From: an uncultured Lachnospiraceae bacterium
Lineage (GTDB): Bacteria; Bacillota; Clostridia; Lachnospirales; Lachnospiraceae
NCBI GenBank assembly: GCA_947174505.1
Contig: CAMWJF010000003.1
Location: 62,001-126,000, forward strand
Direction of reading: 5' to 3'
Length of the DNA: 64,000 nt
Below are positions 48,710 through 64,000 of this stretch, one piece after another; the first letter of the stretch is position 1, and each line of letters opens with the position of its first letter. A program made the position numbers and the translations under genes. The notes beneath the pieces are model-generated. The model had not been told where the DNA came from. It ran no database searches and saw only the letters and a list, made by a program, of their open reading frames with translations.

Positions 48710-50836
48710 TTACAGCATATCCACCATATCCGTCATCCGGTTAAAAAACGGATCCTCCACCTTTAGGTTTAGGAAATCCTGATCTGTAACCTCCACGCGG
48801 TGAATCATGGATAAAAAGACTTCATCCAGCCTTTTATTTATTTTTCTGGCGGATATGGGGCACAGCTTCAGGTATTCCCGGAAGTACCCCCGGATCCCTT
48901 CCTGCGCTTCCTGAAAACATCGAATATCGCCCGCTTTTCTGGTTTCACGCTCATACATGGGATTCCCCTTTTCATCAAACCCTTTTATGGATGGCATAGG
49001 CGCTGTCAGCATGGTCTCAAGGATATAATAATCCTGAAAAATAGCGCTGGTATTCCTCTCCGCATCATTATAAAAAGATATGATGTCCAGATTTTTTCCC
49101 CGCATCTGTTCCTCATCCAGTCGGAGAAAATAGATGCCTTTCAAATGGCAGGGTAAGAGCCTGCTAATATACATCTGCGTGGTGCCTTTCGCAACAAAAT
49201 CAAAGAAGGCAGCGTCTCCCTCTTTTATATGCTGTTTCTCAATATATACACGATAATTTTCCCTGTTTTTTGCCGTGCGTTTAAAAATTTCCTCCTTATA
49301 GTCCAGCAGCTGCGCCCGTTCATCCATCTCATCCACACGGATTCCGAACCGCTTTTCAAGCTGTCCCGTCAGGCTTCCGCTGAATTTCATCTCCCCAACA
49401 TAACGGATATCTTCCTCATTCTCCATACATGCCCGTATCGCAGCCGTTCTGGACGTCAGAAAGTAAACAGAAGAAATACTGTTACACAGTTCGTCATACA
49501 GCTGCTTGACCAGATAACCGTCCCGGGCGCAGAAAAGTATATTTTCCAGCCGAAATTCCTTCACCTGTTCCCGAAACCACAGCACAAAATCACATATCAT
49601 CGGCGCGAAAAATACATACCCGATGTCATATGCAGCACTCACACCAATCCGCCGTTCCTTTGTCTCAAACTGAAACGGGCTGTTAAAGACACGGGCTGCA
49701 AACATGCCGATCCTGATCCTGTCCGACAGGGAGTCCGTATCGTCCCACACCCCCATATATCCTGCCAGTTCCAGAAGATCCATGCCACTGTAAAGGCGGC
49801 AGGCGGTGATTCCATTTTTTTCGGCATGCTCCACATCTGCAGTCCCGTCATCCCCGATATGCAGATACCGCTCCGCCTTCATCTCTTCCTTATACTTCTG
49901 AAAGAGCATCTGGGTTTTCCCCGTTTCAAACTCGCAGGAAACAAACACCTCCGTATATTGTGTGATACCGCACTTCTCCATAATGCCTGTGATCTGTTTC
50001 CTGTTATAGTAGGAATCCGATACGACAGAAACCTTTTTCCCGCACGCTGCCAGCCCCGAAAGTATCTCGCAGACATCCTTTCGGGGAATCAAAAGCCCAC
50101 AGTCTATCTCCCACTCCAGCACCGCCATCTGCTCCGGCTCGATTTCCGGTATCTGGTATGTATGCTTCATATGTGAGTAAATTTCCGTAAGTCCCGGCGC
50201 CCGTTCTCTTGACAGTTCCTTTTCACTGGCCATCCGCCTGGCTGGAAAATCCTCTATGACGATGCCGTGCTGCCGCAGCCTGTCGTCCACCAGCTCAAAC
50301 ACATCTGAGGGAAATAAAACCTGCCTCATAATCAGTGTATCAAACAAGTCAAAGCTGACGGCATCGTACTTTTCTATCTGCCGCATCAGCTCTTCTCTGG
50401 TAATCCCCTCTGCCTTTTGAAAATCATAAACCACACGCTGTATATCACACAGGTTGTTTCCCCGCACATCAAGCAGGGCGATATTCCGCTCCCGGCATGT
50501 CCCGCCGATCCTTCTGGCAATGGCACGGCAGGATCCCGGGCGGGCCGCCACGAGAATCAGTCTGACCTGCTTCTCAACCGCCTGCTCCAGCGAAATAATC
50601 GGTATTTCATATAAGATTCCGCTGCTTTGATAGCCGTCCAGCAGTCCAACTATCTGGCATATGCCGCCAATCTCCGCCAAAACTCTTTCGGTTTCTGTCC
50701 CCAGCCCGTAGACTGCGATTTTACTTCCTTGATATTTTGAAATGATATTCTGTAACTCAGACACCGTTTTTCTCTCTTTCCCCTTCAAGCTGCATCTGCA
50801 ATGCTTTCTCCGGCTCCTTTCCGTCTGCCGTTCCAT
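48710..50836 (-). CDS. Rossmann module plus HAD-like protein of the glycan operon
   Basis: Up to 708 residues. A GTG at 50764 (VSELQNIISKYQGSKIAVYG) is a likely true start; the ATG at 50836 would add 24 basic residues. First comes the operon's Rossmann-like module (SKIAVYGLGTETERVLAEIG, then VGLLDGYQSSG), then a HAD-type hydrolase domain (AVSFDLFDTLIMR with DxFDT, VVSDSYYNRKQI, HIGDDGTADVEHA), and a long C-terminal domain with LFCARDGYLVKQLYDEL and FFDFVAKGTTQMYISRLL. This HAD-plus-tail layout is known from surface-polysaccharide loci in Firmicutes without defined function. It may be a phosphatase or kinase acting on a sugar phosphate. Last gene of the operon, 0 bases after the preceding gene. 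Confidence 0.75.
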   Translation of the reverse strand: MERQTERSRRKHCRCSLKGKERKTVSELQNIISKYQGSKIAVYGLGTETERVLAEIGGICQIVGLLDGYQSSGILYEIPIISLEQAVEKQVRLILVAARPGSCRAIARRIGGTCRERNIALLDVRGNNLCDIQRVVYDFQKAEGITREELMRQIEKYDAVSFDLFDTLIMRQVLFPSDVFELVDDRLRQHGIVIEDFPARRMASEKELSRERAPGLTEIYSHMKHTYQIPEIEPEQMAVLEWEIDCGLLIPRKDVCEILSGLAACGKKVSVVSDSYYNRKQITGIMEKCGITQYTEVFVSCEFETGKTQMLFQKYKEEMKAERYLHIGDDGTADVEHAEKNGITACRLYSGMDLLELAGYMGVWDDTDSLSDRIRIGMFAARVFNSPFQFETKERRIGVSAAYDIGYVFFAPMICDFVLWFREQVKEFRLENILFCARDGYLVKQLYDELCNSISSVYFLTSRTAAIRACMENEEDIRYVGEMKFSGSLTGQLEKRFGIRVDEMDERAQLLDYKEEIFKRTAKNRENYRVYIEKQHIKEGDAAFFDFVAKGTTQMYISRLLPCHLKGIYFLRLDEEQMRGKNLDIISFYNDAERNTSAIFQDYYILETMLTAPMPSIKGFDEKGNPMYERETRKAGDIRCFQEAQEGIRGYFREYLKLCPISARKINKRLDEVFLSMIHRVEVTDQDFLNLKVEDPFFNRMTDMVDML

Positions 50837-52252
50837 TTACCGGGCTTCCTGCCCCTGCATCGGTGGCATGATCCGCAGGATGCTTTCCTCAAAAGCTTCC
50901 ATGGAAAACACCTTCTCGTAAACTTTCCTTGCCGGAATTCTCATATCTGCAATCTTCTGCGGATTTTCAATACACCAGACAATCCTCTCCGCAAGCTGCT
51001 CCACATCCTCACTTTTAAACACAATACCGTCCATCCCGTCCCGTATGTACTTCGCAGTACCCGTAGCATCCGACAGGATACATGGCACGCCATGCATCAT
51101 TGCCTCCGCTGCCACCGTGGGCATGGGGTCTTCTCTTGACGGGCAGACCAATACATCCGCTTTCTCCAGAATTTCATGAATTGCCTCCCTGCCTAAAACC
51201 CCTGTCATACAGACCTCCGGGATATCTGCCGTCCCCTCCCTGATCTGTCCCGCCATCCGGGATGAATCCTGTCCAACCATATAAAAAACTGATTTTCTGC
51301 GGATTTCTTTGGGGAGCCCGCAGATGGCCTCTGCCAGAATGTCCTGCCCCTTTCTCTCTTCTATGTAGCCGATGGTCACAAAGCACGTTTTACCATTACT
51401 CTCGTTTTTCGCCCTTACTCCCCCTGCCTCATCCGCCACGCCATATATAAGATCCTCCACCTGCATATCTTTACAGAACCTTGTGGCCGCTTCCCGCGCC
51501 ACAGGACTCACCGCACAGACTTTCATGTTCTTCCGGGGCATGCTGCGCAGTCTTTTCGGATTCACCCCGTCATAAAAGAAAGAGGAATCGTGCAGCCACC
51601 ATATAACGGGGATATCAGCATTTCGTTCCGACAGGAACACATGGAAATTAATTGTATTGCACACAATCAGGTAAAAGCCCTGTATCCATCCGGCTTCCTG
51701 CATGGTTTCCACCTGTAGGTTGACATCTACCACCGTCGGTATCCCCTCCGCTGTCAACACCTCCCGCAAGGGTCCGTCCAGCATGGACGCCATCACCACT
51801 TCCCTTCCCTGCTTCCGCAATGTCTGCGCCATGTGATAGAGCGCCAGAGCCGGCCCTCCCATGGTCAGGTCGTGTGATAATAGCAGGACAGCTCTAGATT
51901 TCTCCATCTTCTCTGCCCCGCAATAATATCGTACTGTTTTCTTATAATCCGCTTTCTGTCCATCACATCTACAACAGATCAAATCATGAAGATCATAGAA
52001 GTGATAAATCTTATCCTCCGGCACTCCCAGCTCTACAAGCTGCCGCTTCATTGCCTTTACATAGAAGCTCAGGATCACGACAGCATCATAGTCCAGCCGT
52101 ATGCCCTGCTCCGGGGACAGAATCTTTATACCGTCAATACAGGTATTCTGCTTATCCGGCGCGTTATCCAGTAAGGAAATGACCTCCTTCGGATCGAACC
52201 ATTTTCTGTATCTCTCATAGTAATCACCTGTGCCAAAAAGAAGAAACTTCAT
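50837..52252 (-). CDS. Rossmann module plus GT4 glycosyltransferase
   Basis: 471 residues from the ATG at 52252, which overlaps the previous stop (TGATG). Residues 1-95 are the Rossmann-like module (KFLLFGTGDYYERYRKWF, VISLLDNAPDKQN, YDAVVILSFYVKAMKRQL). From about 120 a GT-B family 4 glycosyltransferase follows: LLLSHDLTMGGPALAL, VIWWLHDSSFF, FVTIGYIEERKGQDIL, and ADVLVCPSREDPMPTVAAEAM with the GT4 EX7E motif. Acts on the cytoplasmic face, substrate unknown. Confidence 0.87.
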   Translation of the reverse strand: MKFLLFGTGDYYERYRKWFDPKEVISLLDNAPDKQNTCIDGIKILSPEQGIRLDYDAVVILSFYVKAMKRQLVELGVPEDKIYHFYDLHDLICCRCDGQKADYKKTVRYYCGAEKMEKSRAVLLLSHDLTMGGPALALYHMAQTLRKQGREVVMASMLDGPLREVLTAEGIPTVVDVNLQVETMQEAGWIQGFYLIVCNTINFHVFLSERNADIPVIWWLHDSSFFYDGVNPKRLRSMPRKNMKVCAVSPVAREAATRFCKDMQVEDLIYGVADEAGGVRAKNESNGKTCFVTIGYIEERKGQDILAEAICGLPKEIRRKSVFYMVGQDSSRMAGQIREGTADIPEVCMTGVLGREAIHEILEKADVLVCPSREDPMPTVAAEAMMHGVPCILSDATGTAKYIRDGMDGIVFKSEDVEQLAERIVWCIENPQKIADMRIPARKVYEKVFSMEAFEESILRIMPPMQGQEAR

Positions 52253-53433
52253 CACTCTTCTCCAAATACCTTAAAAATGTTCCCAATTGATAGGGTGTTT
52301 TTCATATCCTCAAACAGCTCTGTTACCGCGCATACCCTCGCATCTGATAAATCTGTCAGCTTCTTTCTGATACTCTCCACTTCTTCCACCAGAGAAATAA
52401 TAATCATGTCCACTGCCGGCGCTTGTCCATCCGGCAGATAAACCGAAACCATTTCTTCCTTCAGATATTCCGCATTCATGTCAATAAAATACTTTACGCA
52501 AACTTTCCCTTTATTCAGGCTGTGGTATAGTCTTTTCCCTATGTAGCTGAACCCATAAATTGCCACGGTGCGGATTCCCCTTCGCACCAGATAATCTTCC
52601 AGGCGAACCCCCTGTTCGTACAGATTCATCCATGTATGATACACAAAAAACATCTTTTGGAACTTGCTCAGCACCCTTATATGATCCTCTGCGGCACTTT
52701 CTACCGTCATATACAGTCTTTCCAGTTCTTTTCCTGTCAGGATCCCATTTTGTGCCACCTGCCAATACACTTCCCTCTCGGACTGTATCATATGCTCTGC
52801 ATTAATGGACTCATTACTTCCCTCTACTACATGTTCAAATAGAATTTCCTTATTTAAAGCAAATTTACAATCATCCACCAGCATGCAAATCCAAAGCAGC
52901 CAGTCATCCGCCCCGTTATGTTTTAACCCAATACGCCTCCAAATTTCGGGGATGCTGTCTTTCCTAAGTAATACCTGTCCGGGAGAGATAATGGGATTTC
53001 TAACCCCGACTATATATTCCCTGCTTATAACCTTTTCAAACGGCATTCTGGTATCATAAAACTGCCTGCCCTCATGAAGCAGTCTGCAAACAGACGCATC
53101 CGCTTCACCAATGCACTCTAGCTGGCTGGAAAAATACTCTGGTCTTATATGATCATCCTGATCCAGAAACAGGACATAGTCTCCCGTACACTGCTCCAAT
53201 CCTCTGACTCTGGCTCCATGAATACCTCTGTTTATGTCTGTTTCAATCACCTTTATCACTACTGTCTCTGAAAAACAACTGCCGATTGGTTCACAGGGAT
53301 CGTCATTAACTAAAAGAAGCTCCAGAATACATCTGCCATCGTACTCTGCCACACACCTTTCAAGTTGTACAATCATTCTGTCTATGTACTTTTTGCCATG
53401 AAATACAGGCACGATCACGCTAATAATTTGCAT
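52252..53433 (-). CDS. GT2 glycosyltransferase with C-terminal Rossmann module
   Basis: 393 residues. GT-A family 2 domain first: MQIISVIVPVFHGKKYID, LLLVNDDP, DYVLFLDQDDHI (DxD-type metal motif), GADDWLLWI. The Rossmann-like module is here at the C-terminus, about 280-385 (RTVAIYGFSYIGKRLYHSL, VKYFIDMNAEYL, VDMIIISLVEEVESI), the reverse order to its neighbours. Overlaps the next gene by one base. Confidence 0.87.
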   Translation of the reverse strand: MQIISVIVPVFHGKKYIDRMIVQLERCVAEYDGRCILELLLVNDDPCEPIGSCFSETVVIKVIETDINRGIHGARVRGLEQCTGDYVLFLDQDDHIRPEYFSSQLECIGEADASVCRLLHEGRQFYDTRMPFEKVISREYIVGVRNPIISPGQVLLRKDSIPEIWRRIGLKHNGADDWLLWICMLVDDCKFALNKEILFEHVVEGSNESINAEHMIQSEREVYWQVAQNGILTGKELERLYMTVESAAEDHIRVLSKFQKMFFVYHTWMNLYEQGVRLEDYLVRRGIRTVAIYGFSYIGKRLYHSLNKGKVCVKYFIDMNAEYLKEEMVSVYLPDGQAPAVDMIIISLVEEVESIRKKLTDLSDARVCAVTELFEDMKNTLSIGNIFKVFGEE

Positions 53434-53458
53434 ATATGACCCTCAAAATCTCTGCCTA

Positions 53459-54397
53459 TTACTCTTCTATCATATTCTTATGAATGTACGTCTGTTCTGT
53501 CGCCCCATTGCTAATCATCAGATATCCGTTGTCGTTAAGCAATTTCTTGATACCCCTGATCTTCTCCACGCTGTCAGGGAACATTCTGGCATGGGTTTCC
53601 AGACAGAGCTGGTCAAATTTAACACCTGATTCTAAAATTTCCGGTAGAGCCAAAAACTCCGAACCTTCCACATCCATCTTTAAAATATCCAGGTGGTCAT
53701 ATCCGTATCTGTCCATCAGCGTTGCCAGACGGTACATTTCAACCGTAATGGTTTTCTCCGACGTCCAGGCGGCAAAATACTCCGAATAGTCTGTATATGC
53801 CCGGTCACTGTTGGGACAATGAAACGCCTTTCTCCCATCCTGATCTGACAGTCCAAACGGGAAATAATGCAACTTCGCCAGTATATCACTCTTCTTCATA
53901 TATTCAATCACTTCCGGAGTCGGATCAAATGCATACACAACAGCTCCATATTTTTCCGTTAATTCTTTTTCAAACGTATAATCAAACCCTACCCCAAAAG
54001 AAAAGCATACAGGCTCAGCCTTCTTTTTTAATAATCTTTCCGCCAGCCTAAACGGCATTCCTTCTCCACAGGATACCAAATCCACTTCTACATCCTTTTC
54101 CCCCTGCAAAAAGGCCGGAAGATTCCTGTAATACTCCACTCCATGAGACTCCAGGGCTTCTGCCACCCGATTCTTTTCCTCCTCATCATCCATAGAAATG
54201 ACAAACGGGCTTTGTCCATGACTCCGCACTGCCTCTTCCATGTTTAAAACCTCACACCCCTTAAATAAAGTAACCTGATCTGCCACCTTATCACAAAACG
54301 CCTCCACATGGACATTCTGTTCCGTCAACATCTCAAAGTTTTTCGCTCCTCTGAGATTAACGCCATATATCACTACTGATTGGTTCCTGTTCAACAT
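53459..54397 (-). CDS. Rossmann module plus FkbM-type methyltransferase
   Basis: 312 residues from the ATG at 54397, preceded by GGGAGG nine bases away; an in-frame ATG at 54430 would overlap the previous gene. Residues 1-100: Rossmann-like module (QSVVIYGVNLRGAKNFEML, VEAFCDKVADQ). From about 105: FkbM SAM methyltransferase (SFGVGFDYTFEKELTEKYG, VYAFDPTPEVIEYM, DILKMDVEGSEFLALPEI, LCLETHARMFP). Probably O-methylates a sugar. Confidence 0.85.
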   Translation of the reverse strand: MLNRNQSVVIYGVNLRGAKNFEMLTEQNVHVEAFCDKVADQVTLFKGCEVLNMEEAVRSHGQSPFVISMDDEEEKNRVAEALESHGVEYYRNLPAFLQGEKDVEVDLVSCGEGMPFRLAERLLKKKAEPVCFSFGVGFDYTFEKELTEKYGAVVYAFDPTPEVIEYMKKSDILAKLHYFPFGLSDQDGRKAFHCPNSDRAYTDYSEYFAAWTSEKTITVEMYRLATLMDRYGYDHLDILKMDVEGSEFLALPEILESGVKFDQLCLETHARMFPDSVEKIRGIKKLLNDNGYLMISNGATEQTYIHKNMIEE

Positions 54398-54419
54398 CCT
54401 AATATTCCTCCCTGGCTTC

Positions 54420-55631
54420 CTAAATTTCATTCTCTAATACGCTAAGCCTTTCCCGCAACGGCGCAATAAATCTCGCGATTGTTGGGTCATAAATCACCGC
54501 TGATTTATGGTAATCCTCCAATCTGTTAAGATATAATCCATACCATTCATCCTGACTTGCCTTGCAATCCTTCAAATAGCCATATCCTCTTTGACACATC
54601 TTGTAATACATCTCTTCCTCTGATCTGGTAAAATAATGGTTGACACGCAGCTTCTCACAGCGTCCGTCAAAAAAAACCAGTTCCGTAATGTATGATCCAT
54701 TCTCACTCAGACACGCAAAACCGGAAATATAATCCATCAGATGAGGATGACACCTCTTTATCGTGCGAGGATTGGCGATCGTTTTAATATGGGCAGACTC
54801 CATCCGCTTTTCATCCAGACGGTACATATAATTTTCAATCACAAGGCCCTTCGGACGTTTCTTATGGCCGCCAGTTCCATAATAACGCCAGTTAATACCG
54901 ATCCCACCGCCTAACTGTTTCTGAATCCCATAATATTTCATATTTTTCCGATGTTCCGCCAATATTCCGTCCACGATCCCTGCCAGATAATCCTCTTTGG
55001 AATGATCTGCCGGAACAAGAAACTCATCCACGTCTATAACTGCCATATACTTGCTTTCGAACTTGTAATGGTCTACTGCATGCTGATATGCTTCCGACTG
55101 TCCGTCTGGCCAATATTGATATGTCACAATCCCCTGCTCTATGTATTCTGTAAGAAATTCCCGCAAATCATCCGTACTTTTATTATCATAAATATAAAAA
55201 TGTTCTATCCCCAACATGCGGTGATATTCCATCCACTCCCTCATATAAGAAGCCTCATTCTGAATGATCAAAACAATGGAAATCCGGTACGAGTACGTAC
55301 CTTCATAATATAAGTCATGCAGATAATCTATCAAAGAAATAACCTTCTTACTATCTGCCCCTTTTTCCACCAGAGATTCCCGTATTTCCTGAAAATACTT
55401 ATTGGTTGTGACTACAATATAATCATAGTCATCTCCGGAAATACCGCATATATCTCTTATCTCATATACCTGCTCTCCCACCGAAATTTTTTCGCCAAAC
55501 CGTTTTTTATTCCCGTCACAGAACGCGGTAATGGATATCCCCATTTCCATGGTCAAGCTCAGATACAAAGATTCTTCATCAAAATAAGTATGAAAATCCT
55601 GTCCGATTCCATAAACGATAATTCTTTGCAT
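54420..55631 (-). CDS. Rossmann module plus GT92-like glycosyltransferase
   Basis: 403 residues. Residues 1-110 are the Rossmann-like module (QRIIVYGIGQDFHTYF, ITAFCDGNKKRFG, YDYIVVTTNKYFQEIRESL). A GT92 (former DUF23) GT-A domain follows: LIIQNEASYMREWMEYHRMLG, HFYIYDNKSTDDL, YMAVIDVDEFLVP (DxD), RVNHYFTRSEEE. GT92 members transfer galactose in animals; bacterial substrates are mostly unknown. GGAGG before the ATG. Confidence 0.85.
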   Translation of the reverse strand: MQRIIVYGIGQDFHTYFDEESLYLSLTMEMGISITAFCDGNKKRFGEKISVGEQVYEIRDICGISGDDYDYIVVTTNKYFQEIRESLVEKGADSKKVISLIDYLHDLYYEGTYSYRISIVLIIQNEASYMREWMEYHRMLGIEHFYIYDNKSTDDLREFLTEYIEQGIVTYQYWPDGQSEAYQHAVDHYKFESKYMAVIDVDEFLVPADHSKEDYLAGIVDGILAEHRKNMKYYGIQKQLGGGIGINWRYYGTGGHKKRPKGLVIENYMYRLDEKRMESAHIKTIANPRTIKRCHPHLMDYISGFACLSENGSYITELVFFDGRCEKLRVNHYFTRSEEEMYYKMCQRGYGYLKDCKASQDEWYGLYLNRLEDYHKSAVIYDPTIARFIAPLRERLSVLENEI

Positions 55632-55686
55632 TGCTTTCCTCCGCCTTAATCGAATCTTTATCCGTTGTCGCTATTAAGCTTCTGGC

Positions 55687-56769
55687 TTATTCCTTTATTC
55701 CTCTGACAATTCCACGGCATAACCTTGTTGACACATAAGTCTGCCTTACCGTCCCAAAAAACCACATATATCCCTCCGTAACAGAAATTTCCATTCCATA
55801 TTTCATTAATATATTCTTGATTAATATTTCATCAAAATCCCCATGATAGGCACATATAGCGCACTTCAAATCATTCGATCGGGCAATTAGTTTTTCCGCC
55901 CCCAATAATGCATCCCATTCATTTCCCTCTATATCCATTTTAATAAAATTAACCGGCTCCTCTATCAACTGATCAAGCGTTGCATATTTCCCTAGATTTA
56001 TAGAAGTTATAAACTTCTTAATTATTATTACCTTATCTCCATAATTGCGGAATGTCTCCCGAAGCGCTTCGATCCATTCGTCATCCGACTCGATTATGTA
56101 CAATTTTGAAACCCGATCAACAATCTGCAAAGAGAAATTGCCTTCTGCAACACCAATATCCACCACAACATCTCCATCCTCAACACCAAAATTTTCATCC
56201 GTGTATTTATGTGGTGATCCGGCATCTTGTTCAATGAGTATACTTCTATAGTATTCTGCTGCTCTCTCCCTGCTTTTTAGCGACTTTGAAAAATACAGCC
56301 TTTTCCCATTATGGTATACAAAATACATGCTGCAATTCTCGTCAAACTGTATTTCAATTTCCAAGTTTCTATACTTTTCTGTAAAATCATAATTAAAAGT
56401 CTGTAAATCATTTGTCTGCAAGTAGTTTAATATTTGTATGATCTCAGGATCACGGCTGTCCTGATAGCGTTTTATAAGACTTTGTTTGTAAAAAAAACTC
56501 ATACTTTCAACTATATTTACCATTGGGGGAAATTCTCGTTCGATTTGTCTTTTTATTTCTTCATAACTTGCTGTTAATATCACAATTTTATCAGGCTGTA
56601 TTACCCCTAAAATACTCGATGCAAAAATTTCCCTGTTATAAAAATACGTTCCTATCTTATTAACATCATTATCAATAAAACCTAATACATCATATAAACT
56701 GAAAACATCGCACTGTTCAAGAGCCTGCTCCGATATCTTGCCCGTTCCCCAAATCAATATTTTTTCCAT
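55687..56769 (-). CDS. Rossmann module plus second FkbM-type methyltransferase
   Basis: 360 residues. Residues 1-95: EKILIWGTGKISEQALEQ, VLGFIDNDVNKIG, KIVILTASYEEIKRQI. From about 190: DGDVVVDIGVAEGNFSLQIV, LYIIESDDEWIEAL, VNFIKMDIEGNEWDALLGAE, ICAYHGDFDEI. Between them a beta-rich stretch (residues 115-180) has no match that I know. More AT-rich than the central genes. GAGGAA precedes the start. Confidence 0.85.
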   Translation of the reverse strand: MEKILIWGTGKISEQALEQCDVFSLYDVLGFIDNDVNKIGTYFYNREIFASSILGVIQPDKIVILTASYEEIKRQIEREFPPMVNIVESMSFFYKQSLIKRYQDSRDPEIIQILNYLQTNDLQTFNYDFTEKYRNLEIEIQFDENCSMYFVYHNGKRLYFSKSLKSRERAAEYYRSILIEQDAGSPHKYTDENFGVEDGDVVVDIGVAEGNFSLQIVDRVSKLYIIESDDEWIEALRETFRNYGDKVIIIKKFITSINLGKYATLDQLIEEPVNFIKMDIEGNEWDALLGAEKLIARSNDLKCAICAYHGDFDEILIKNILMKYGMEISVTEGYMWFFGTVRQTYVSTRLCRGIVRGIKE

Positions 56770-56819
56770 TCACGATTCCTCTGCAATCTCGTTTATGCTG
56801 TAGCCGACCAGAAACCATA

Positions 56820-58082
56820 CTACTCGAAAATATGAGCAACAACCTCTTTTTTATATTTGCTTATATAGTCATTCCTGTCATCCGTTGCCACTTCACCATA
56901 TTGCGTCACTTCACTGACATTTTTATATGGAATGCCGCAGCGCTTATCTACCCCCCGCAGATACCACTCATATTCTACATCCAGTTGACCAATATCGATA
57001 ACCCAATAACCTTCTTCTGCTAAATCATAAGCCAACACAGTTGCTGTCGGTCCTAATACCGCCAAAATCAGCTTATTTCGCCCCTGTTTTCGCACCTCAT
57101 CCACAATTTCCTTATATCGTGAAAATGCATTTTTTCCTGGAGCCAATACTCTTGAAACCACTGCAGCATTGTCTAACAGATCATTTCCTACACCAAATCT
57201 CGTATATTCTCCCTCTACGATTAAAACATCCTGCCCGTCCCAGATTTTTCTAATATTGTCAAATCGTTTACCCGCATTCTTTTTATTTCGATAAATAATA
57301 TATGGCCGGGATAAATAAGCATCATAATACTGCCGTTCTGAATCCAGCAATTTCATATGTTCTTTTCTTACTTTTTTGCTCATATATGATCTGATTGCTT
57401 CCGCATCTTCATCTGTATACTTATCCAATTTTCCATAATTATTTGCAATGGCAATCAGTAAATTCTCATTTTCGGAGGACAGAGCCTCCCTCAACCGCTG
57501 CCCAAGCTTTTCATCCACATCCTGAAATGCGGCACGTCGTCTCCCGCACATCAATTCAAATTCGCCGTCTCCAAATCTTGCCAGACATTTTCTGTCTTTC
57601 AACAGAATTTCTACCGTCCTGTCCACATCTGCTATCTTGGGACATCGACTCTGTACGGTTTCGGATTCCGCATAGATCTCATACGCCAGATTATCAAGTG
57701 TCGGTATTGCAACACCCCTGTAATGCTTCCACATTAGTTCAATCCGCCACTTATACGAATCAAGGACACTCCAGTATTCTTCATTGTCCGCATCAGAAAA
57801 ATCAAAAAAACATATGATTTTATCTGGTTTCACGCCCTGCAGGATTAATTTTTCTCTCGTGTCTTCATACTGCATCAGAGAAACAATAATGTAATCATAA
57901 CCGTCCGACAATTTATTCTGCCTGACAAGCGGTATCCCCTCCACCTCGCTCATAATATCTGCCTTATAATTATCAATAATTCCCAGAACTTGTGTTTTGT
58001 CCTTCATAAGGCATCTGTCAATATACGCTTTTCCCTTTCCCATCCCAAAAATATATAGCTTTTTCAAGTATCTTTTCTCCAC
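56820..58082 (-). CDS. Rossmann module plus GT-D (DUF1792) glycosyltransferase
   Basis: Up to 420 residues. The GTG at 58082 has no good ribosome site; a TTG at 58067 has GGAG nine bases upstream and overlaps the capG stop (TTGA), so it may be the true start (415 residues). Residues about 5-100 form the Rossmann-like module (KKLYIFGMGKGKAYIDRCL, VLGIIDNYKADI, YDYIIVSLMQYEDTREKL). Then DUF1792: CLARFGDGEFELMCG contains the DGE motif of the GT-D fold, plus VLIVEGEYTRFGVGNDLLDNA and LAVLGPTATVLAYDL. Known relatives extend serine-rich repeat glycoprotein glycans. Confidence 0.85.
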   Translation of the reverse strand: MEKRYLKKLYIFGMGKGKAYIDRCLMKDKTQVLGIIDNYKADIMSEVEGIPLVRQNKLSDGYDYIIVSLMQYEDTREKLILQGVKPDKIICFFDFSDADNEEYWSVLDSYKWRIELMWKHYRGVAIPTLDNLAYEIYAESETVQSRCPKIADVDRTVEILLKDRKCLARFGDGEFELMCGRRRAAFQDVDEKLGQRLREALSSENENLLIAIANNYGKLDKYTDEDAEAIRSYMSKKVRKEHMKLLDSERQYYDAYLSRPYIIYRNKKNAGKRFDNIRKIWDGQDVLIVEGEYTRFGVGNDLLDNAAVVSRVLAPGKNAFSRYKEIVDEVRKQGRNKLILAVLGPTATVLAYDLAEEGYWVIDIGQLDVEYEWYLRGVDKRCGIPYKNVSEVTQYGEVATDDRNDYISKYKKEVVAHIFE

Positions 58083-59251
58083 ACAAACCGATCCACAATA
58101 CCCGTATAACTCTGAATAATTTTCACCACTTTCGTGCTGACATTTTTCTCACTGTAATCATATACCGGCGATGCTGATTCCCCATCCATGTTCATCGCAA
58201 CCGCTAATTCTACCGCCTGCAATAATGACTCCTCACTGATCCCCGCCAACACAAAATTAGCCTTATCCATGGCTTCTGGTCTCTCGGTAGATGTACGTAT
58301 ACATACAGCCGGAAATGCATGTCCGTAGGATGCATAAAATGCGCTTTCTTCCGGTAATGTCCCTGAATCTGACACCACGACAAACGCATTCATTTGCAGA
58401 TTATTATAATCAAAAAACCCTAACGGCTCATGCCTTATAATCCGCTTGTCCAGGATAATCTCTGATTGCTCTATTCTTTTCTGTGAACGTGGATGGCAGG
58501 AATACAAAATCGGTATATCGTATTTTTCTGCCAATGCGTTCAAAGCATTGAATAGAGAATGAAAATTTTTTTCTGAATCTATGTTCTCCTCTCTATGCGC
58601 CGAAAGCAAAATATATTTTTGAGGTTTTAATGCCAGTCTTTCTATAATATCTGACCGCATAATGCCATCCAGATTATTATCAAGTACCTCCGTCATTGGA
58701 GATCCAGTCACAAAAACCCGTTCTTTTGGCAGCCCGCATTCGTGCAGATATTTTCTGGCATGCTCAGAATATGCCATATTTACATCGGAAATGATATCAA
58801 CGATACGTCTGTTGGTTTCCTCCGGCAGGCACTCATCCTTGCATCTGTTCCCAGCTTCCATATGAAAAATAGGTATATGCAGCCTTTTAGCAGCAAGAAC
58901 AGAAAGGCAGCTATTTGTATCCCCCAAAACCAGCAGGGCATCCGGTTCTGTCTGCCTCATCAGCTTGTACGAACAGTTAATAATATTTCCATATGTGGCT
59001 CCTAAATCATCTCCTGCCGCATTCATATAGACTTCCGGCGGTGCAATCTTTAACTCCTCAAAAAAAACGCCGTTCAAATTGTAATCATAGTTTTGCCCCG
59101 TATGCGCCAGTATACAGTCAAAATATTTTCTGCATTTACCGATCACAGCACTAAGCCTTATAATTTCAGGCCGCGTTCCTACTATAATTAGTAACCTTAA
59201 TTTTCCATTATTCTTAAAAGTAACATCTCCATAGTCTAATTTAATACCCAA
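58064..59251 (-). CDS. capG: UDP-sugar 2-epimerase, CapG/WecB type
   Basis: 395 residues from a TTG at 59251 with AGGAGG nine bases upstream. The UDP-GlcNAc 2-epimerase family motifs are clear: LIIVGTRPEIIRLSAVI, HTGQNYD, LVLGDTNSCLSVLAA, HMEAGNRCKDECLPEETNRR, LLSAHREENID, VVVSDSGTLPEES. As it follows capE and capF, it is most likely the third enzyme of UDP-L-FucNAc synthesis (CapG/FnlC) rather than ManNAc-forming WecB. Start lies 33 bases after capF. Confidence 0.86.
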   Translation of the reverse strand: MGIKLDYGDVTFKNNGKLRLLIIVGTRPEIIRLSAVIGKCRKYFDCILAHTGQNYDYNLNGVFFEELKIAPPEVYMNAAGDDLGATYGNIINCSYKLMRQTEPDALLVLGDTNSCLSVLAAKRLHIPIFHMEAGNRCKDECLPEETNRRIVDIISDVNMAYSEHARKYLHECGLPKERVFVTGSPMTEVLDNNLDGIMRSDIIERLALKPQKYILLSAHREENIDSEKNFHSLFNALNALAEKYDIPILYSCHPRSQKRIEQSEIILDKRIIRHEPLGFFDYNNLQMNAFVVVSDSGTLPEESAFYASYGHAFPAVCIRTSTERPEAMDKANFVLAGISEESLLQAVELAVAMNMDGESASPVYDYSEKNVSTKVVKIIQSYTGIVDRFVWRKDT

Positions 59252-59284: not shown

Positions 59285-60484
59285 TCACACCTTCTCAGAA
59301 AATGTGTCGGGGCACATCGGATCGAACTGTTCATTCGCCCACATCACCGTCACCAGATCTTCCGTCTCCGACAAATTGATAATATTATGTGTATAACCCG
59401 GAAGCATTTGTATTCCCTCTATCTTCTCTCCCGATACTTCATATCTCACGACCTCGTCAGATCCGATTTTTCTCTCTTCAATGAGTCCATGTCCTGCCAC
59501 AACAAAGAAAATTTCCCATTTGCTGTTATGCCAGTGCTGTCCTTTTGTAATCCCCGGTTTACTTATATTAACCGATACCTGTCCACATTTATCAGTCTTT
59601 AACAGTTCTGTAAAACTTCCCCTCTCATCTTTGTTCATTCTGAGTTCATAAACTGCTTTCTCCTTCGGCAGATAGGAAAGATATGTAGAATACAGTTTCT
59701 TCGCAAAGGATTCCGATGCGATTTCAGGCATAACCAATGTATCTGTCTGCTTGCGGAACTGTTCAAGCAGCTCGACAATATTGCCCAGCGTCGCATGATA
59801 TACCGTAGGAATAAAACAGAACTTTCCATTTTCATCCTCTGTCATTTTAAATTCATTCCACTCGCACCTATGTTCTTTCCCCTCCATGGCGGCAAACATT
59901 TCTTTGATCAGATCATCGATATAGACAAGATCCAATTCAACCGAGGCATCGTTTATCTGAATGGGCAAATCATTAGCAATGTTGTTGCAAAATGTCGCAA
60001 TCACTGAATTATAATTTGGCCTGCACCATTTTCCGAACATATTGGGAATTCGATAAACCAAAACCTTAACTCCTGTTTTTTCAGCATATTCAAATAACAA
60101 TTCTTCCGCTGCCAATTTACTTTTTCCATATTCACTGCCTGCAAATCTCCCATGTAACGTAGCCTGGATGGAAGACGCATACATGATAGGACATTTATTA
60201 TTCCACTTCTGCAATTCCTGAAGCAGATGACAGGGGAATTTATAATTGCCTGTCATAAATTCAGAATTTTCCCTGGGTCTGTTAATCCCGGCAAAATTAA
60301 ATACAAAATCTGCTCTCTGACAGAAATCGGACAGTTCTTCTTCAGACGTATTTAAATCGTATTCATATATTTCCTTAATATCCAGCTTCTCATGTATCCT
60401 GTCTTTTCCGTCTCTGACATTTTTTAGCGCCGCAACAAAATTTTTACCCATAAATCCGGCCGATCCTGTTACCAATACATTCAT
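59285..60484 (-). CDS. capF: CapF-type bifunctional reductase/epimerase
   Basis: 399 residues from the ATG at 60484, overlapping the capE stop (ATGA). N-terminal SDR domain (MNVLVTGSAGFMGKNFVAAL, FNFAGINRP, GKSKLAAEELLFEYA) and C-terminal cupin (KPGITKGQHWHNSKWEIFFV with metal-binding His/Glu, GYTHNIINL). In Staphylococcus CapF the cupin epimerises C3 and the SDR reduces C4 to give UDP-L-TalNAc, used by CapG. Confidence 0.94.
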   Translation of the reverse strand: MNVLVTGSAGFMGKNFVAALKNVRDGKDRIHEKLDIKEIYEYDLNTSEEELSDFCQRADFVFNFAGINRPRENSEFMTGNYKFPCHLLQELQKWNNKCPIMYASSIQATLHGRFAGSEYGKSKLAAEELLFEYAEKTGVKVLVYRIPNMFGKWCRPNYNSVIATFCNNIANDLPIQINDASVELDLVYIDDLIKEMFAAMEGKEHRCEWNEFKMTEDENGKFCFIPTVYHATLGNIVELLEQFRKQTDTLVMPEIASESFAKKLYSTYLSYLPKEKAVYELRMNKDERGSFTELLKTDKCGQVSVNISKPGITKGQHWHNSKWEIFFVVAGHGLIEERKIGSDEVVRYEVSGEKIEGIQMLPGYTHNIINLSETEDLVTVMWANEQFDPMCPDTFSEKV

Positions 60485-61554
60485 AAGGCAATCCCCTTTG
60501 TCCTTTTGATATTTTCCCACGCAACCAGCTCTTCCTGAATATAACGCAGTGACAATAGCTTTTCTTTCACCTGCTCTACATCTAAGATTTCTGTATTATT
60601 GCTGTTAAACTCTGACAAACTGACATGATTCGTGTTTCCGATTTTCACATATTTATCATAATTCAGATCCCGCTTGTCACAGGGAACCCTGTAAAAATTC
60701 CCCAGATCCTGAGCATGCGCGCATTCTTCCTGAGTGAGCAATGTTTCGCACTTCTTTTCCCCATGTCGGATGCCTATCGTTTTGATCTCATGTCCCGGAT
60801 CAAAAACCTCTGCCACTGCTTTTGCTAATGTCGCAATCGTACATGCCGGCGCTTTTTGCACCATGATATCTCCGCTGACTCCGTTCTCAAAAGCAAAGAG
60901 AACCAAATCCACCGCTTCTTCCAGTGACATGATAAAGCGTGTCATTGCAGGATCAGTAATTGTAATAGGATTTCCCTGTTTAATCTGGTCTATCCAAAGC
61001 GGAATGACAGATCCTCTTGAACACATGACATTTCCATATCTGGTGCAACATATTTTCGTATTACCCGCAATAACTGCCCTGGACTTTGCTACAATAACCT
61101 TTTCCATCATGGCCTTGGACGTCCCCATTGCATTGATTGGATACGCCGCCTTATCCGTTGATAAACATATAACGGCCTTTACATCCGCCGAAATCGCCGC
61201 AGTTAAAACATTATCTGTTCCCAAAACATTTGTTTTAACTGCTTCAACCGGAAAAAACTCGCAGGATGGAACCTGTTTTAGCGCCGCCGCATGAAATATG
61301 TAATCAACACCATTTACCGCACTTCTTATGGAATCAATATCCCTTACATCTCCGATATAAAATTTTATTTTGTCGGCCGCTTCCGGCATCCTGACCTGAA
61401 ATTCGTGCCGCATGTCGTCCTGTTTCTTTTCATCTCTGGAAAATATTCTGATCTCTCCGATATCCGTCTTCAAAAATCTGTTTAATATAGCATTACCAAA
61501 GGATCCTGTACCTCCGGTTATCAACAGTGTTTTACCTTTAAACATCTCATTCAT
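60481..61554 (-). CDS. capE: CapE-type UDP-GlcNAc 4,6-dehydratase/5-epimerase
   Basis: 357 residues. SDR of the extended dehydratase group: LLITGGTGSFGNAILNRFL, IRIFSRDEKKQDDMRHEF, HAAALKQVPSCEFFP, and SMKA-like MGTSKAMMEKV. It makes the 4-keto-6-deoxy sugar that starts UDP-L-FucNAc synthesis. First enzyme gene of the three; M4 (61545) is an alternative start. Follows a GT2 gene after six bases. Confidence 0.93.
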   Translation of the reverse strand: MNEMFKGKTLLITGGTGSFGNAILNRFLKTDIGEIRIFSRDEKKQDDMRHEFQVRMPEAADKIKFYIGDVRDIDSIRSAVNGVDYIFHAAALKQVPSCEFFPVEAVKTNVLGTDNVLTAAISADVKAVICLSTDKAAYPINAMGTSKAMMEKVIVAKSRAVIAGNTKICCTRYGNVMCSRGSVIPLWIDQIKQGNPITITDPAMTRFIMSLEEAVDLVLFAFENGVSGDIMVQKAPACTIATLAKAVAEVFDPGHEIKTIGIRHGEKKCETLLTQEECAHAQDLGNFYRVPCDKRDLNYDKYVKIGNTNHVSLSEFNSNNTEILDVEQVKEKLLSLRYIQEELVAWENIKRTKGIAL

Positions 61555-61560
61555 CTCCCA

Positions 61561-62736
61561 TTAGCTATCCCAGCAGTCCTCTTTTTTCAGCTTCAAAAAA
61601 AATGCTTTCCCAAGTGTATTCCTGTTCAATGGATGATACACAGACTGTTTCACTTTTTCATAATCCAATACTGATTTTTCGTAACACAGCAGTCCCTCCA
61701 GTAATTCATATATAAAGAAATATTTACTTGTACCCTCCAACGGCCGCTGCGCCAAAATCATTCTAAGACCTGACAAAATCCTGCTTTCCAGTTCTTCCTG
61801 GCGATCCGACTCCAATGCACATTCGCGAATAACCATATCCTCATAAATTCTTAGCGCCTCAGCCACTTTGTTTTCGGTTGTTAATTTACAATCCGGATGG
61901 CACAATGTATACAATTCATCAGTCAGCTCACCCATCCGCCTTTTTGACCAATATTCCTTTATATCACCCTCATATAAATTCCATGCTTTGTATAATAATT
62001 TGCTGCCCGTATATATGTCATTAAACATCTCATGAAGATAGGGATAATATTTCCCCTCCGATGCATTCATATGGGGAGAACTATATACCATAAAATCATA
62101 CACTGCTTCTTTCATGACAAACGCTGTATTAATGTCATCCGCTATCGCTATATTAAATAGAGTATCTGCGCCATACACATCATTTCTGAATGGATGCTTC
62201 AACATCAATTCTCTTTTATACAAATTCGCCTGATTGTGATTCAATCCTTGAAGTGTCAAGGTAAACCAGGCGTTTCTCACTTCATCTGCACTAGATAAAA
62301 AAACATCTTTTTTTACCTTCTGATCCGATTGCCCATAATCATATTCTGTAATTCTCTGCTCCTCATCACATCTGTGCGACAGAACCTTTGTCCAAATCAC
62401 ATCCGGCTCATACTCTTCAACAATTTCCGTCATTCTCCTCAGTGCACCTTGTCGCATCCGGTCATCGGAATTTAATATGTATATGTACTTTCCCGCCGCC
62501 GCTTTTATGCCGTTATTGAAGCTTGCATATATCCATTGATTTTCCTGATGGATTACCCGGATTTTCTTGTCTTTTCCAGCCATCTCGTCAAGAATCTGCG
62601 GTGTATTGTCTGTAGAACCATCATCTATCAGAATATATTCGTAATCATCGATCCCCTGCTGCAATATACTTTCTACCGCACTTTTTACATACTTCTCATT
62701 GTTGTAAACAGGGGTAATAATCGAAAATAACGGCAT
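61561..62736 (-). CDS. GT2 glycosyltransferase
   Basis: 391 residues. MPLFSIITPVYNNEKYVK, YEYILIDDGSTDNTPQIL, KYIYILNSDDRM (DxD-like SDD), YGADTLFNIAIAD. The C-terminal 130 residues are helical without recognised match and lack the Rossmann module of the downstream genes. GGAGG before the start. Confidence 0.9.
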   Translation of the reverse strand: MPLFSIITPVYNNEKYVKSAVESILQQGIDDYEYILIDDGSTDNTPQILDEMAGKDKKIRVIHQENQWIYASFNNGIKAAAGKYIYILNSDDRMRQGALRRMTEIVEEYEPDVIWTKVLSHRCDEEQRITEYDYGQSDQKVKKDVFLSSADEVRNAWFTLTLQGLNHNQANLYKRELMLKHPFRNDVYGADTLFNIAIADDINTAFVMKEAVYDFMVYSSPHMNASEGKYYPYLHEMFNDIYTGSKLLYKAWNLYEGDIKEYWSKRRMGELTDELYTLCHPDCKLTTENKVAEALRIYEDMVIRECALESDRQEELESRILSGLRMILAQRPLEGTSKYFFIYELLEGLLCYEKSVLDYEKVKQSVYHPLNRNTLGKAFFLKLKKEDCWDS

Positions 62737-62757: not shown

Positions 62758-63999
62758 TCAGCACTTTTTACTTTTGCTAATATCCTCATACATTTCAATT
62801 ACTTTTCGGGTATTTTCGCTTTCATCATATAATGACAAAGCCCGCCTCCTTGCATTTTCAGAAAACTTTTGCGAAAGTTTTCGATTCCGCATCAATTTAT
62901 ACAGGTAAAATGCCAGCATATGCGGCTCATCAACTCGATAAATATAACCCTCTTTCGCATGTTCCATCATGCTACATACTCCGCCTACGTCTGCCGCAAT
63001 ACAAGGAACACCGAGTATCATGGCCTCCGCCAATGTATTAGGAGAGTTTTCACCTGAAGAAGGTAGCACAAAAACATTTGTCTTAAGAAACTGCTCCCAC
63101 ATTTTTTCTTCACATAAGGAACCTAAAAAGGTTATTTTGTCTTCCAATTGATATTTTTTTATGATTTGTTCTATATATTTCCCATACGAAGAAACATCTT
63201 TTCCCTGACATATATTTTGTCCGCCTATATAGACCTTTATCTCCGGAATCAATTCTTTTAACATACTAATAGCCTGTAGAAAAATATGCAGCCCTTTTGG
63301 CGGATAGGACGCTTGGCCCAAAAAGACAGAATATGGTTCGACAGCTTCTGCCTGCCATTGCCCTTCATAAAATTTTTTTCGCAATATCCTATTACATTTA
63401 AAATATTTACTCGAGGGATTCACTATCTTTACATATGCTTCATCAAAATCTGTTCTCCCCTCAAAAATTTTTATATGCCTGAATACATAACCTTCATACT
63501 GTCCCTGCATTTCAAATTTTTTCTTTTCTTTCTCAATACATCCTATTTTCCCTTTCTTAGTCATACGGGGAAATAATCTATCTTTTGCAGAAATGCCATC
63601 ACAATAATGCTTTGCTAAAAGACACATAATCCCTTGTATTGACATAACCATTCTATCCAGCTCAATCCCTGATCTTACGGCTGCATACGCATGATAATAC
63701 TCACTACCAAATAAGTGCACTACATCTGGTCGTTCCAGCATATATATTTCTTTTAAATCTTTTTCCATTTTTTTATCATAGGTATGCGATGCCATATCCT
63801 CATAAAATCCATAAAACATCACCTTCCCAATCTTTTTCTGAATCAATGCTTTCGTCCGATTCTGTGGAAAGCAATAGACAAATTCTATATTTTCCTTTTC
63901 TTTAAGATGGCTGGACAATGCTGGTAACCAACCACCTAATGAAGAATTAACTCCAATCCTCTCAGCCATTTCAGGCAAAGGTAAATTGGCAATCCACAT
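62758..63999 (-). CDS. GT4 glycosyltransferase, start at or beyond the right edge
   Basis: 413 residues visible. MWIANLPLPEMAERIGVNSS is near the usual start of GT4 enzymes (strand, then LPLPE), but the true start may lie beyond 64000. Later motifs: VHLFGSEYYHA, SVFLGQASYPPKGLHIFLQAI, DKITFLGSLCEEKMWEQFL, NVFVLPSSGENSPNTLAEAM with the EX7E pattern. AT-rich. Followed after 21 bases by the GT2 gene. Confidence 0.88.
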   Translation of the reverse strand: MWIANLPLPEMAERIGVNSSLGGWLPALSSHLKEKENIEFVYCFPQNRTKALIQKKIGKVMFYGFYEDMASHTYDKKMEKDLKEIYMLERPDVVHLFGSEYYHAYAAVRSGIELDRMVMSIQGIMCLLAKHYCDGISAKDRLFPRMTKKGKIGCIEKEKKKFEMQGQYEGYVFRHIKIFEGRTDFDEAYVKIVNPSSKYFKCNRILRKKFYEGQWQAEAVEPYSVFLGQASYPPKGLHIFLQAISMLKELIPEIKVYIGGQNICQGKDVSSYGKYIEQIIKKYQLEDKITFLGSLCEEKMWEQFLKTNVFVLPSSGENSPNTLAEAMILGVPCIAADVGGVCSMMEHAKEGYIYRVDEPHMLAFYLYKLMRNRKLSQKFSENARRRALSLYDESENTRKVIEMYEDISKSKKC

Positions 64000-64000
64000 T

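Follow-up and report, generated by a model that had tools for sequence, protein, structure and literature searches.

Seven consecutive genes of a glycan cluster in an uncultured Lachnospiraceae bacterium carry, as judged by profile comparison of their sequences, one homologous Rossmann-type module of about 95 residues. They lie in a 64,000-nucleotide stretch of contig CAMWJF010000003.1 (hereafter the window). An earlier note on this DNA had placed the module at the N terminus in six genes and at the C terminus in the GT2 protein, with HAD, GT4, GT2, two FkbM, GT92 and GT-D domains as partners. The seven ORFs and the module positions were confirmed and the partner domains matched by Pfam. The neighboring capE-like, capF-like and epimerase-like genes and two other glycosyltransferase genes, described there as lacking the module, gave no significant profile match. 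Two further modules, a stand-alone copy and a fusion, lie just beyond the window edge. The genes are:

48710..50836, minus strand: HAD-family protein, 708 aa; N-terminal module at ~50456-50737 (aa 34-127); Pfam HAD match barely above the cut-off
50837..52255, minus strand: GT4 glycosyltransferase, 472 aa; N-terminal module at ~51983-52255 (aa 1-91); by Pfam and module profile
52252..53433, minus strand: GT2 glycosyltransferase, 393 aa; C-terminal module at ~52303-52581 (aa 285-377); by Pfam and module profile
53459..54430, minus strand: first FkbM-type methyltransferase, 323 aa; N-terminal module at ~54104-54394 (aa 13-109); by Pfam and module profile
54420..55631, minus strand: GT92 glycosyltransferase, 403 aa; N-terminal module at ~55314-55631 (aa 1-106); by Pfam and module profile
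55687..56769, minus strand: second FkbM-type methyltransferase, 360 aa; N-terminal module at ~56485-56769 (aa 1-95); by Pfam and module profile
56820..58082, minus strand: GT-D (DUF1792/SP_1767-type) glycosyltransferase, 420 aa; N-terminal module at ~57789-58079 (aa 2-98); by Pfam, NCBIfam and module profile
58064..59251, minus strand: UDP-GlcNAc 2-epimerase-like (capG), no significant module match; enzyme named from the earlier note and by eye
59285..60520, minus strand: capF-like, without module; named likewise
60481..61554, minus strand: capE-like SDR, without module; named likewise
61561..62736, minus strand: GT2 glycosyltransferase without module; by Pfam and module profile
62758..64000, minus strand: GT4 glycosyltransferase without module, 416 aa, starting beyond the window edge; by Pfam and module profile
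G000:C3:126021-126470: stand-alone module, 149 aa, with a likely membrane helix; next gene upstream of the module-less GT4 gene
C3:126505-127812: module fusion, 435 aa, just outside the window
G000:C3:131196-133610: 804-aa gene, part of the window's cluster

Pairwise comparisons among the seven segments, by BLAST (best 1e-6, with many pairs giving no match) and phmmer, are too weak to settle the matter, so the relation of the modules depends on profiles. A test HMM was built from 14 modules on contigs C1 and C33 of the same genome, with window and C17 sequences excluded, and scored against every window ORF of 90 aa or more, 134 in total. The seven genes took exactly ranks 1-7, at 16.8-42.8 bits (E 3.8e-13 to 4.8e-5). 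Rank 8, the window's top score for a gene without the module, was the capE-like SDR at 8.2 bits (E 0.023). For shuffled versions of the seven proteins, 7000 in all, the maximum was 9.2 bits. With leave-one-out HMMs, from which the C17 counterpart was also dropped for HAD, GT4, GT2 and GT-D, the omitted gene scored 21.6-48.6 bits, and no ORF other than the seven exceeded 7.1. Profile-profile comparison with hhalign, the check proposed in the earlier note, joined 19 of the 21 module pairs at a probability of at least 91.5%, the exceptions being HAD-GT92 (14.9) and HAD-GT-D (56.0); the inputs were separate, very small alignments of 1-20 relatives each, the HAD module having only 1. Two of 63 module-control comparisons exceeded 50%: the capE-like SDR (75.3) and the GT-D catalytic part (96.1), the latter being gappy and false, the one control in 63 to come out falsely high. 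A common module in all seven genes is thus upheld by the ranks under an HMM from other loci of the genome and by the hhalign pairs. Two other accounts of the likeness were rejected: chance resemblance of Rossmann starts, because the capE-like SDR scores under all seven, and a single recent domain duplication, because identities are mostly 10-30% and the nearest modules are often on the same partner.

The module profile finds 25 distinct PDB chains at E<=0.01, a significant relation to the Rossmann-type nucleotide-binding superfamily. The best solved relative is the NAD-binding repressor Rex (1e-10), followed by 3nkl (8e-10), 2g6t (1.3e-7), VioB (4.5e-6) and WbaP (1.7e-5), with DapB- and diaminopimelate-dehydrogenase-type chains at 3e-6 to 2e-5. 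Pfam searches of 120 of the 247 modules (E<=1e-3) matched PglD_N (PF17836) in 12 (best 1.8e-7), C2185-like_N (PF22674) in 10, the second-commonest match, Methyltransf_14 in 5, CoA_binding (PF02629) in 4 and CoA_binding_2 (PF13380) in 1. The complete list at this threshold has 13 families and does not include PF13727, yet the module profile finds WbaP. The Rossmann-type, PglD_N-like character suggested earlier is supported, PglD_N being the closest of the three families then named. For the seven window proteins themselves, neither PglD_N (cut-off 23.4 bits) nor CoA_binding nor CoA_binding_2 is listed at E<=1; PglD_N gives 16.8-20.3 bits, under its cut-off, in four other module proteins of the genome. 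The cut-off of PF22674 (27 bits) is likewise unreached in the window (GT92 20.4, GT4 13.5, none at E<=1 for the other five), its best score being 24.6 bits among 19 other own-genome module proteins and one divergent one. It is the commonest Pfam match among 18 own-genome modules (5/18 at E<=0.1). By Pfam counts this C2185-like domain, for which we know of no function, is close to the module, although none of the seven is above its cut-off; we take PF22674 to be related to PDB 2g6t, which would agree with the module profile's own match to that structure.

The module shares with PglD_N (NeuD/VioB) a Rossmann-type beta-alpha-beta start, an aromatic-G-x-G/S turn and an Asp ending strand 2. PglD_N, however, forms part of a hexapeptide acetyltransferase, whose UDP-sugar it holds, whereas in a single genome the module accompanies enzymes of at least 15 Pfam types, a hexapeptide transferase among them. 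It is also reminiscent of the accessory domain of WbaP-like large phosphoglycosyl transferases and PglF-like dehydratases (PF13727, CoA_binding_3), as the profile matches to 3nkl and WbaP indicate, but that domain occurs on single enzymes with a membrane-helix bundle and the module across whole gene clusters. Classification as NeuD/PglD was rejected, as the architecture and the second Asp differ. The first glycine of the glycine loop is kept in 238/245 modules, the second in 213/245 and the Asp in 198/246, that is, 80-97% retention despite mostly 10-30% sequence identity, with the full GxGxxG plus Asp in 113/247. At the position of the second Asp, which reads uracil in PglD, an Asp is found in 2/246; given this and Rex as the top solved relative, UDP-sugar binding, as put forward in the earlier note, cannot be assumed. 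Because conservation falls on the hydrophobic core as well as on the glycine loop and Asp, without a recognisable shared surface, it fits ligand binding better than docking.

Three observations called for data beyond the window and lay outside the earlier note's reach: the genome-wide scale of the module, the arrays without multi-TM genes and their co-occurrence with Flagellin_N. The organism's own genome holds 37 profile matches at E<=1, and the 32 at E<1e-5 all lie within four gene clusters. A search of genome contigs with the GT-D protein as query gave one locus only. Matches at E<=1e-6 occur in 42/100 family genomes and 62/199 phylum genomes, and similar module arrays are present in relatives at both levels. 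Three profile rounds gave 306 module genes (292 from the first), including a few known relatives, such as a 229-aa NeuD-like gene in C17. Adjacent module pairs number 181, against 159.8 +- 4.5 when permuted (0/5000 as high), in 39 regions that were chosen for module presence and in which genes were called by a simple longest-ORF script. Among the matches listed from the open-access literature, no title or abstract describes such a shared module, and no paper was found there that joins flagellin glycosylation, Lachnospiraceae and glycosyltransferases.

To compare partners, Pfam was run on 115 of the 229 non-redundant fusions and on 137 of the 159 non-redundant genes that lack the module in the same loci, with 25 of 50 and 25 of 119 families listed, respectively. 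GT2 is strongly enriched with the module (39/115 versus 7/137, p 2e-9), GT4 is if anything commoner without it (5/115 versus 11/137), and the difference for epimerases (at most 2/115 versus 10/137) is not significant (p 0.07). Known relatives among the 115 fusions are PglD_N in 3 (E<=1e-5), perhaps true NeuD proteins, and Methyltransf_14 in 2. The nearest module is on the same partner in 147/267 fusions, against 9% by chance, implying that fusions persist; in the other 120/267, some inside one locus, it is on a different partner cluster, the 77 clusters coming from single linkage, which may split true families. An N-terminal hydrophobic helix is predicted in 16/32 stand-alone modules, a few of which may be truncated by region or contig ends, versus 11/274 fusions and 10/63 other small proteins; the other half of the stand-alone modules have no membrane helix.

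Inside the spans of the module arrays, a hydropathy rule finds 0/471 genes with at least four TM helices, which points to the absence of a flippase or polymerase there. All six PF02397 sites of the own genome are outside the four module clusters; at the C1 cluster, multi-TM genes of a glycan cluster of lipid-carrier type (assigned by eye) follow 6 kb further on. Flagellin-glycosylation islands typically lack a flippase, a polymerase and an initiating transferase. Flagellin_N (PF00669), which matches FlgL-type hook proteins too, is found in 17/17 family genomes with at least three module matches versus 37/83 others (p 7e-6), in 26/26 with at least two versus 28/74 (p 2.7e-9), although where a genome has only two, one may come from a protein of NeuD or WbpM size, and in 29/29 array genomes. 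A Flagellin_N gene shares the contig of 19/38 module clusters, the nearest at 4-73 kb, and the other 19 are without one, as is the window's own contig. Genes for FliD, FliS, CsrA, FlgK or Maf flank arrays in the three flanks examined closely. The 804-aa gene has homologues near three of the four own clusters and, in four relatives (G236, G255, G296 and G008), 2-6 kb from a Flagellin_N gene. Flagellin-glycosylation loci of Geobacillus and Clostridioides difficile are linked to flagellin and, like the arrays, contain glycosyltransferases, together with methyltransferases of FkbM type (PMC5109656) or a gene resembling phosphoserine phosphatase (PMC4441256); a common module does not figure in the parts of these descriptions available to us. 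The arrays resemble cytoplasmic flagellin-glycosylation islands more than capsule loci, and the window's own cluster may act on flagellin as well.

A capsule locus was the initial reading of the cluster and was dropped as such. That the window's cluster is nonetheless an ordinary capsule or exopolysaccharide locus with its export machinery elsewhere, so that the flagellin association of other arrays would not apply to it, is compatible with any account of the module but rather doubtful. The capE/F/G-like genes alongside, the contig without Flagellin_N and the multi-TM glycan cluster near C1 favor it, whereas the window cluster has no initiating transferase or multi-TM gene and includes the 804-aa gene, with its homologues near flagellin in four relatives, and FkbM methyltransferases and phosphoserine-phosphatase-like proteins are reported from the flagellin-modification loci cited above. 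Against the flagellin part of our proposal stand the window's contig and those of half of the clusters, which are without Flagellin_N, and the multi-TM glycan cluster near C1.

We tentatively favor, at a little under even confidence, that the module is an assembly domain on the enzymes of cytoplasmic, most probably flagellin-directed, glycosylation islands, pairing with other modules and with membrane-anchored copies. Island enzymes in Lachnospiraceae (apparently) and some other families of the phylum would have gained it repeatedly, at one terminus or the other. By analogy with the WbaP domain, which is reported to dimerise (PMC10942596), modules may pair with one another and with the stand-alone anchored copies, which would gather the enzymes that build and modify one glycan at the membrane, close to the flagellin exporter; binding at the retained G-x-G/Asp site, whether of a nucleotide or of an NDP-sugar, could act as an on/off signal. 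Docking on a membrane-anchored hub is our preferred mechanism on account of the catalysis-free copies, half with a likely membrane helix, and the bias to GT2 and other chain-acting enzymes, and the assembly line imagined in the earlier note is plausible. Several observations pull the other way: plain NAD(P)-binding proteins, Rex first, are among the top PDB relatives, the uracil-reading Asp is nearly always missing and the complete motif often so, half of the stand-alone modules have no helix, and GT4 is if anything commoner without the module.

The same site could instead make the module a nucleotide sensor that binds UMP/UDP, some other nucleotide or NAD and regulates the enzyme carrying it by allostery, without gathering others, which we consider unlikely. 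Catalysis-free modules would have nothing to tune, the uracil-reading Asp is lost, and methyltransferase, radical SAM and HAD partners would not yield UDP or UMP. Yet the phosphate-loop glycines and the Asp are among the best-conserved residues, the Asp aligning with the ribose-holding one of PglD-like enzymes (PMC8040287), and the WbaP report describes stabilisation of the domain by UMP/UDP/UTP and inhibition of WbaP by UMP (IC50 4.1 uM; PMC10942596). Allosteric tuning has been proposed for the WbaP domain. Less probable still is a handle that holds an NDP-sugar donor or acceptor glycan for its own catalytic domain. PglD_N and Methyltransf_14 are indeed among the relatives matched, and the C-terminal domain of a C-methyltransferase is another substrate-holding example. 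In PglD-like Pcryo_0637, the N-terminal domain supports the UDP moiety of the substrate (PMC8040287). Against a handle, the module occurs on very different enzyme families, at either end and alone, and the GT-D enzyme model is complete without it: this NCBIfam model (265 positions) covers aa 150-418 only, and of nine plasmid matches to the GT-D protein none begins before residue 146 (6 at 146-159, 3 at 291-296), these being local alignments that a diverged module could escape. We regard it as very improbable that the module has no present function and is selfish, neutral or mere debris, shuffled among glycan genes; the 120 fusions whose nearest module has changed partner would suit this, but the retained glycine loop and Asp and the excess of nearest modules on the same partner would not.

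A bolder version of the assembly explanation, possible but less likely than its general form, is a nucleotide-gated docking code, in which a module shuffled over dozens of enzyme types would tether flagellin-glycan enzymes to a membrane-anchored copy. Such a code would be comparable to the docking domains of polyketide synthases and the dockerins of cellulosomes, and a new enzyme could enter the assembly line merely by gaining the module. One accessory domain across a cluster, with anchored-looking, catalysis-free copies, makes an organised assembly of glycan enzymes directly testable by means of small soluble proteins. Should the flagellin association hold, it would also suggest what a large set of enzymes easily mistaken for capsule genes acts on, and would indicate heavily modified flagellins, apparently in Lachnospiraceae, many of which are gut inhabitants.

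We report that seven consecutive glycan genes of the window (48710..58082) share a Rossmann-type module of about 95 residues. Their ORFs lie where the earlier note had placed them, and Pfam agrees with its catalytic assignments, in order HAD, GT4, GT2, FkbM, GT92, FkbM and GT-D. Because pairwise searches between the seven segments gave weak similarity, we turned to a non-circular test: a profile of 14 modules from two other contigs of the same genome (C1 and C33), with window sequences and those of the counterpart cluster on contig C17 excluded. Precisely these seven genes ranked at the top of the 134 window ORFs scored (E 3.8e-13 to 4.8e-5), bearing out the proposal of one common module; the capE-like SDR, a neighbour lacking the module, came next (E 0.023), and the best of 7000 shuffled proteins reached 9.2 bits. 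The profile-profile comparison that the earlier note had suggested linked 19 of 21 module pairs at 91.5% or above, and failed for two (14.9 and 56.0), both involving the HAD module, for which a single relative was available. Two of its 63 controls stood out: a false match full of gaps (96.1) and a partial one with the capE-like SDR (75.3).

Across 247 non-redundant modules, an aromatic residue precedes the first glycine in 231/245, the three glycines of G-x-G-x-x-G are kept in 238/245, 213/245 and 157/245, and an Asp closes strand 2 in 198/246, followed by Asn in 88/246 and by Asp in 2/246. The first glycine and the Asp are retained in all seven window modules, while the second glycine is replaced by Ser in the GT2 protein and by Asn in the first FkbM protein. 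Among solved structures, the module profile matches Rex, 3nkl, 2g6t, VioB and WbaP; it picks up NAD(P)-dependent dehydrogenases and DapB-type reductases too, so homology alone does not imply a nucleotide-sugar ligand. In the PglD-like protein Pcryo_0637, the ribose is contacted by one Asp and the uracil by the residue after it, also Asp (PMC8040287); our own alignment would equate the strand-2 Asp of the module with the ribose-touching one. The related domain of WbaP forms a dimer via a beta-hairpin and gains stability from UMP, UDP and UTP; WbaP itself is inhibited by UMP with an IC50 of 4.1 uM (PMC10942596). In EpsZ the same region is modelled within a dimer promoted by a response regulator (PMC12802240).

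A search of the whole genome with 18 modules returned 37 matches at E<=1. All 32 below 1e-5 are confined to four clusters, and the five others are marginal, including by eye NeuD-, ThiF- and TrkA-like proteins. The clusters, and a riboswitch in the window, are:

C3:112-128 kb, module cluster 1, reaching into the window, which spans G000:C3:62001-126000 (whole-genome module search)
C17:36-51 kb, module cluster 2 (same search)
C1:49-70 kb, module cluster 3 (same search)
C33:19-26 kb, module cluster 4 (same search)
window 46624-46797, minus strand, lysine riboswitch matching RF00168 at 101 bits; the gene directly after it looks dapA-like by eye

Module partners in this genome (Pfam) are HAD, GT4, GT2, FkbM, GT92, GT-D, sulfatase-like, GT56-like, Gly_transf_sug, hexapeptide transferase, WbsX, DUF268, GT11, Methyltransf_11 and TylF. 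The C17 cluster keeps HAD, GT4, GT2 and GT-D in window order but lacks the three genes that separate GT2 from GT-D in the window; DNA identity to the window is 72% for the HAD gene and 69-71% for parts of the GT4 gene. Genomes of the same genus hold up to 34 module matches each (E<=1e-3), and at E<=1e-6 a match occurs in 42 of 100 family and 62 of 199 phylum genomes. Matches in frames of ~220 or ~620 aa probably represent NeuD and WbpM-like proteins, so genomes with at least two or at least three matches were also counted. The nearest GT-D relative has 64% identity.

Among 673 called genes of 39 array regions, 306 carry the module. Within spans, 181 adjacent pairs are both module genes, compared with 159.8 +- 4.5 after permutation (0/5000 as high), and runs of at least five occur in 18 regions versus 11.3 (3/5000 as high). 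GT2 domains are found in 39 of 115 scanned module-bearing genes and in 7 of 137 scanned genes lacking it; families listed among the latter include epimerases (10), aminotransferases (5) and nucleotidyltransferases. Taken by itself, the epimerase contrast does not reach significance (p 0.07), and GT4 is found more often in genes lacking the module (11/137 versus 5/115). Both sets contain methyltransferases and radical SAM proteins, and a cytidylyltransferase-like domain is present on one protein that bears the module; partner preference is thus a bias, not a law. Radical_SAM matches number 8/115 and 4/137, respectively, and an N-terminal module sits on a protein resembling radical SAM by eye (L045:1710-2804), a partner not expected in a glycan island.

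Sequence comparison shows the module to be an add-on to its enzymes, since on the GT-D protein the NCBIfam enzyme model spans only aa 150-418 and all nine plasmid matches begin at residue 146 or later (six at 146-159), leaving out the N-terminal module. The nearest module of 267 fusions belongs to a different partner cluster in 120 cases and to the same one in 147 (chance 9%), indicating that fusions are both inherited and reshuffled. The module also stands alone: 16 of 32 module proteins of up to 200 aa have an N-terminal hydrophobic helix, compared with 11/274 fusions and 10/63 other small proteins. One is the first gene beyond the window edge, directly upstream of the edge-crossing GT4 gene. 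Proteins of this size offer little room for a catalytic part as well, and no other single observation hints as strongly at a hub.

The glycine loop and the Asp are more strongly conserved than any visible surface, a pattern that speaks for ligand binding; docking draws its support from partner bias, from shuffling and from the stand-alone copies. The two can form a single mechanism, by analogy with WbaP, where one domain is credited with both dimerisation and the response to nucleotides. We tentatively prefer such a mechanism, in which the module would mediate ligand-gated assembly of enzymes on an anchored hub. Of the rival readings, a nucleotide sensor strikes us as rather unlikely, a substrate handle as improbable and debris as very improbable. 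Neither the fold family nor flagellin-glycosylation loci are new in kind, while no description of a promiscuous module with stand-alone copies was found among the literature matches listed from one open-access library.

No gene with at least four TM helices is found among the 471 (at least 150 aa) within module spans; for comparison, genes with five or more make up 5 of 33 in window 1-48000 and 20 of 51 in other flanks of this genome. Its six initiating-transferase (PF02397) sites all lie outside the module clusters. The C1 cluster continues via cytidylyltransferase and NeuB genes to multi-TM genes from 78 kb, so it may have a lipid-linked role. The cytidylyltransferase and NeuB-family genes (G000:C1:73352-75187; L037:15353-17188) suggest a nonulosonic acid in its glycan.

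Flagellin_N genes occur in 29/29 array genomes tested. Among the 100 family genomes they are present in 17/17 with at least three module matches versus 37/83 with fewer (p 7e-6), and in 26/26 with at least two versus 28/74 (p 2.7e-9); with our genus excluded, the figures are 15/15 (p 2.5e-5) and 24/24 (p 9e-9). Such a gene shares the contig in 19 of 38 testable clusters, its nearest copy 4-73 kb away, and is absent from the contig in the other 19. In 12 of these 19 contig-sharing clusters, the intervals from module to flagellin hold 111 genes of at least 150 aa, all with fewer than four TM helices. The C33 cluster is followed, ~2 kb past the FkbM fusion at C33:26631-27719, by a giant 1713-aa flagellin that matches both Flagellin_N and Flagellin_C (G000:C33:29805-34946; L039:2806-7947); Flagellin_N frames of ~1820 aa also occur on G002:C68, which carries an array, and G271:C95. 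FlgK, CsrA, FliD and FliS genes lie in flanks of relatives G236, G205 or G255, and in G205 two Maf-type glycosyltransferases are situated between array and flagellin.

A possible marker of the islands is an 804-aa gene that belongs to the window's cluster but lies beyond the window edge (L003:7197-9611 = G000:C3:131196-133610), and whose product has no Pfam match at E<=1e-3. Homologues are found close to the C3, C17 and C1 clusters; in the relatives G236, G255, G296 and G008, at 32-54% identity, they stand 2-6 kb away from a Flagellin_N gene. Between it and an aminotransferase-like gene, two overlapping short ORFs (L003:6325-7142) look like one broken gene. Close to the 804-aa-type gene of C3 and of the C17 cluster, a recombinase-like stretch adjoins, by eye, a zinc-ribbon (TnpB-like) stretch (L003:9915-11615, L104:13812-16356), as if the same mobile element bordered both islands.

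No Flagellin_N gene was found on the window's own contig, so for its cluster a flagellin role is one we infer. Taken together, the lack of multi-TM genes, the location of PF02397 elsewhere, the co-occurrence and linkage with flagellin and the 804-aa homologues lead us to read the arrays as cytoplasmic, flagellin-type glycosylation islands.
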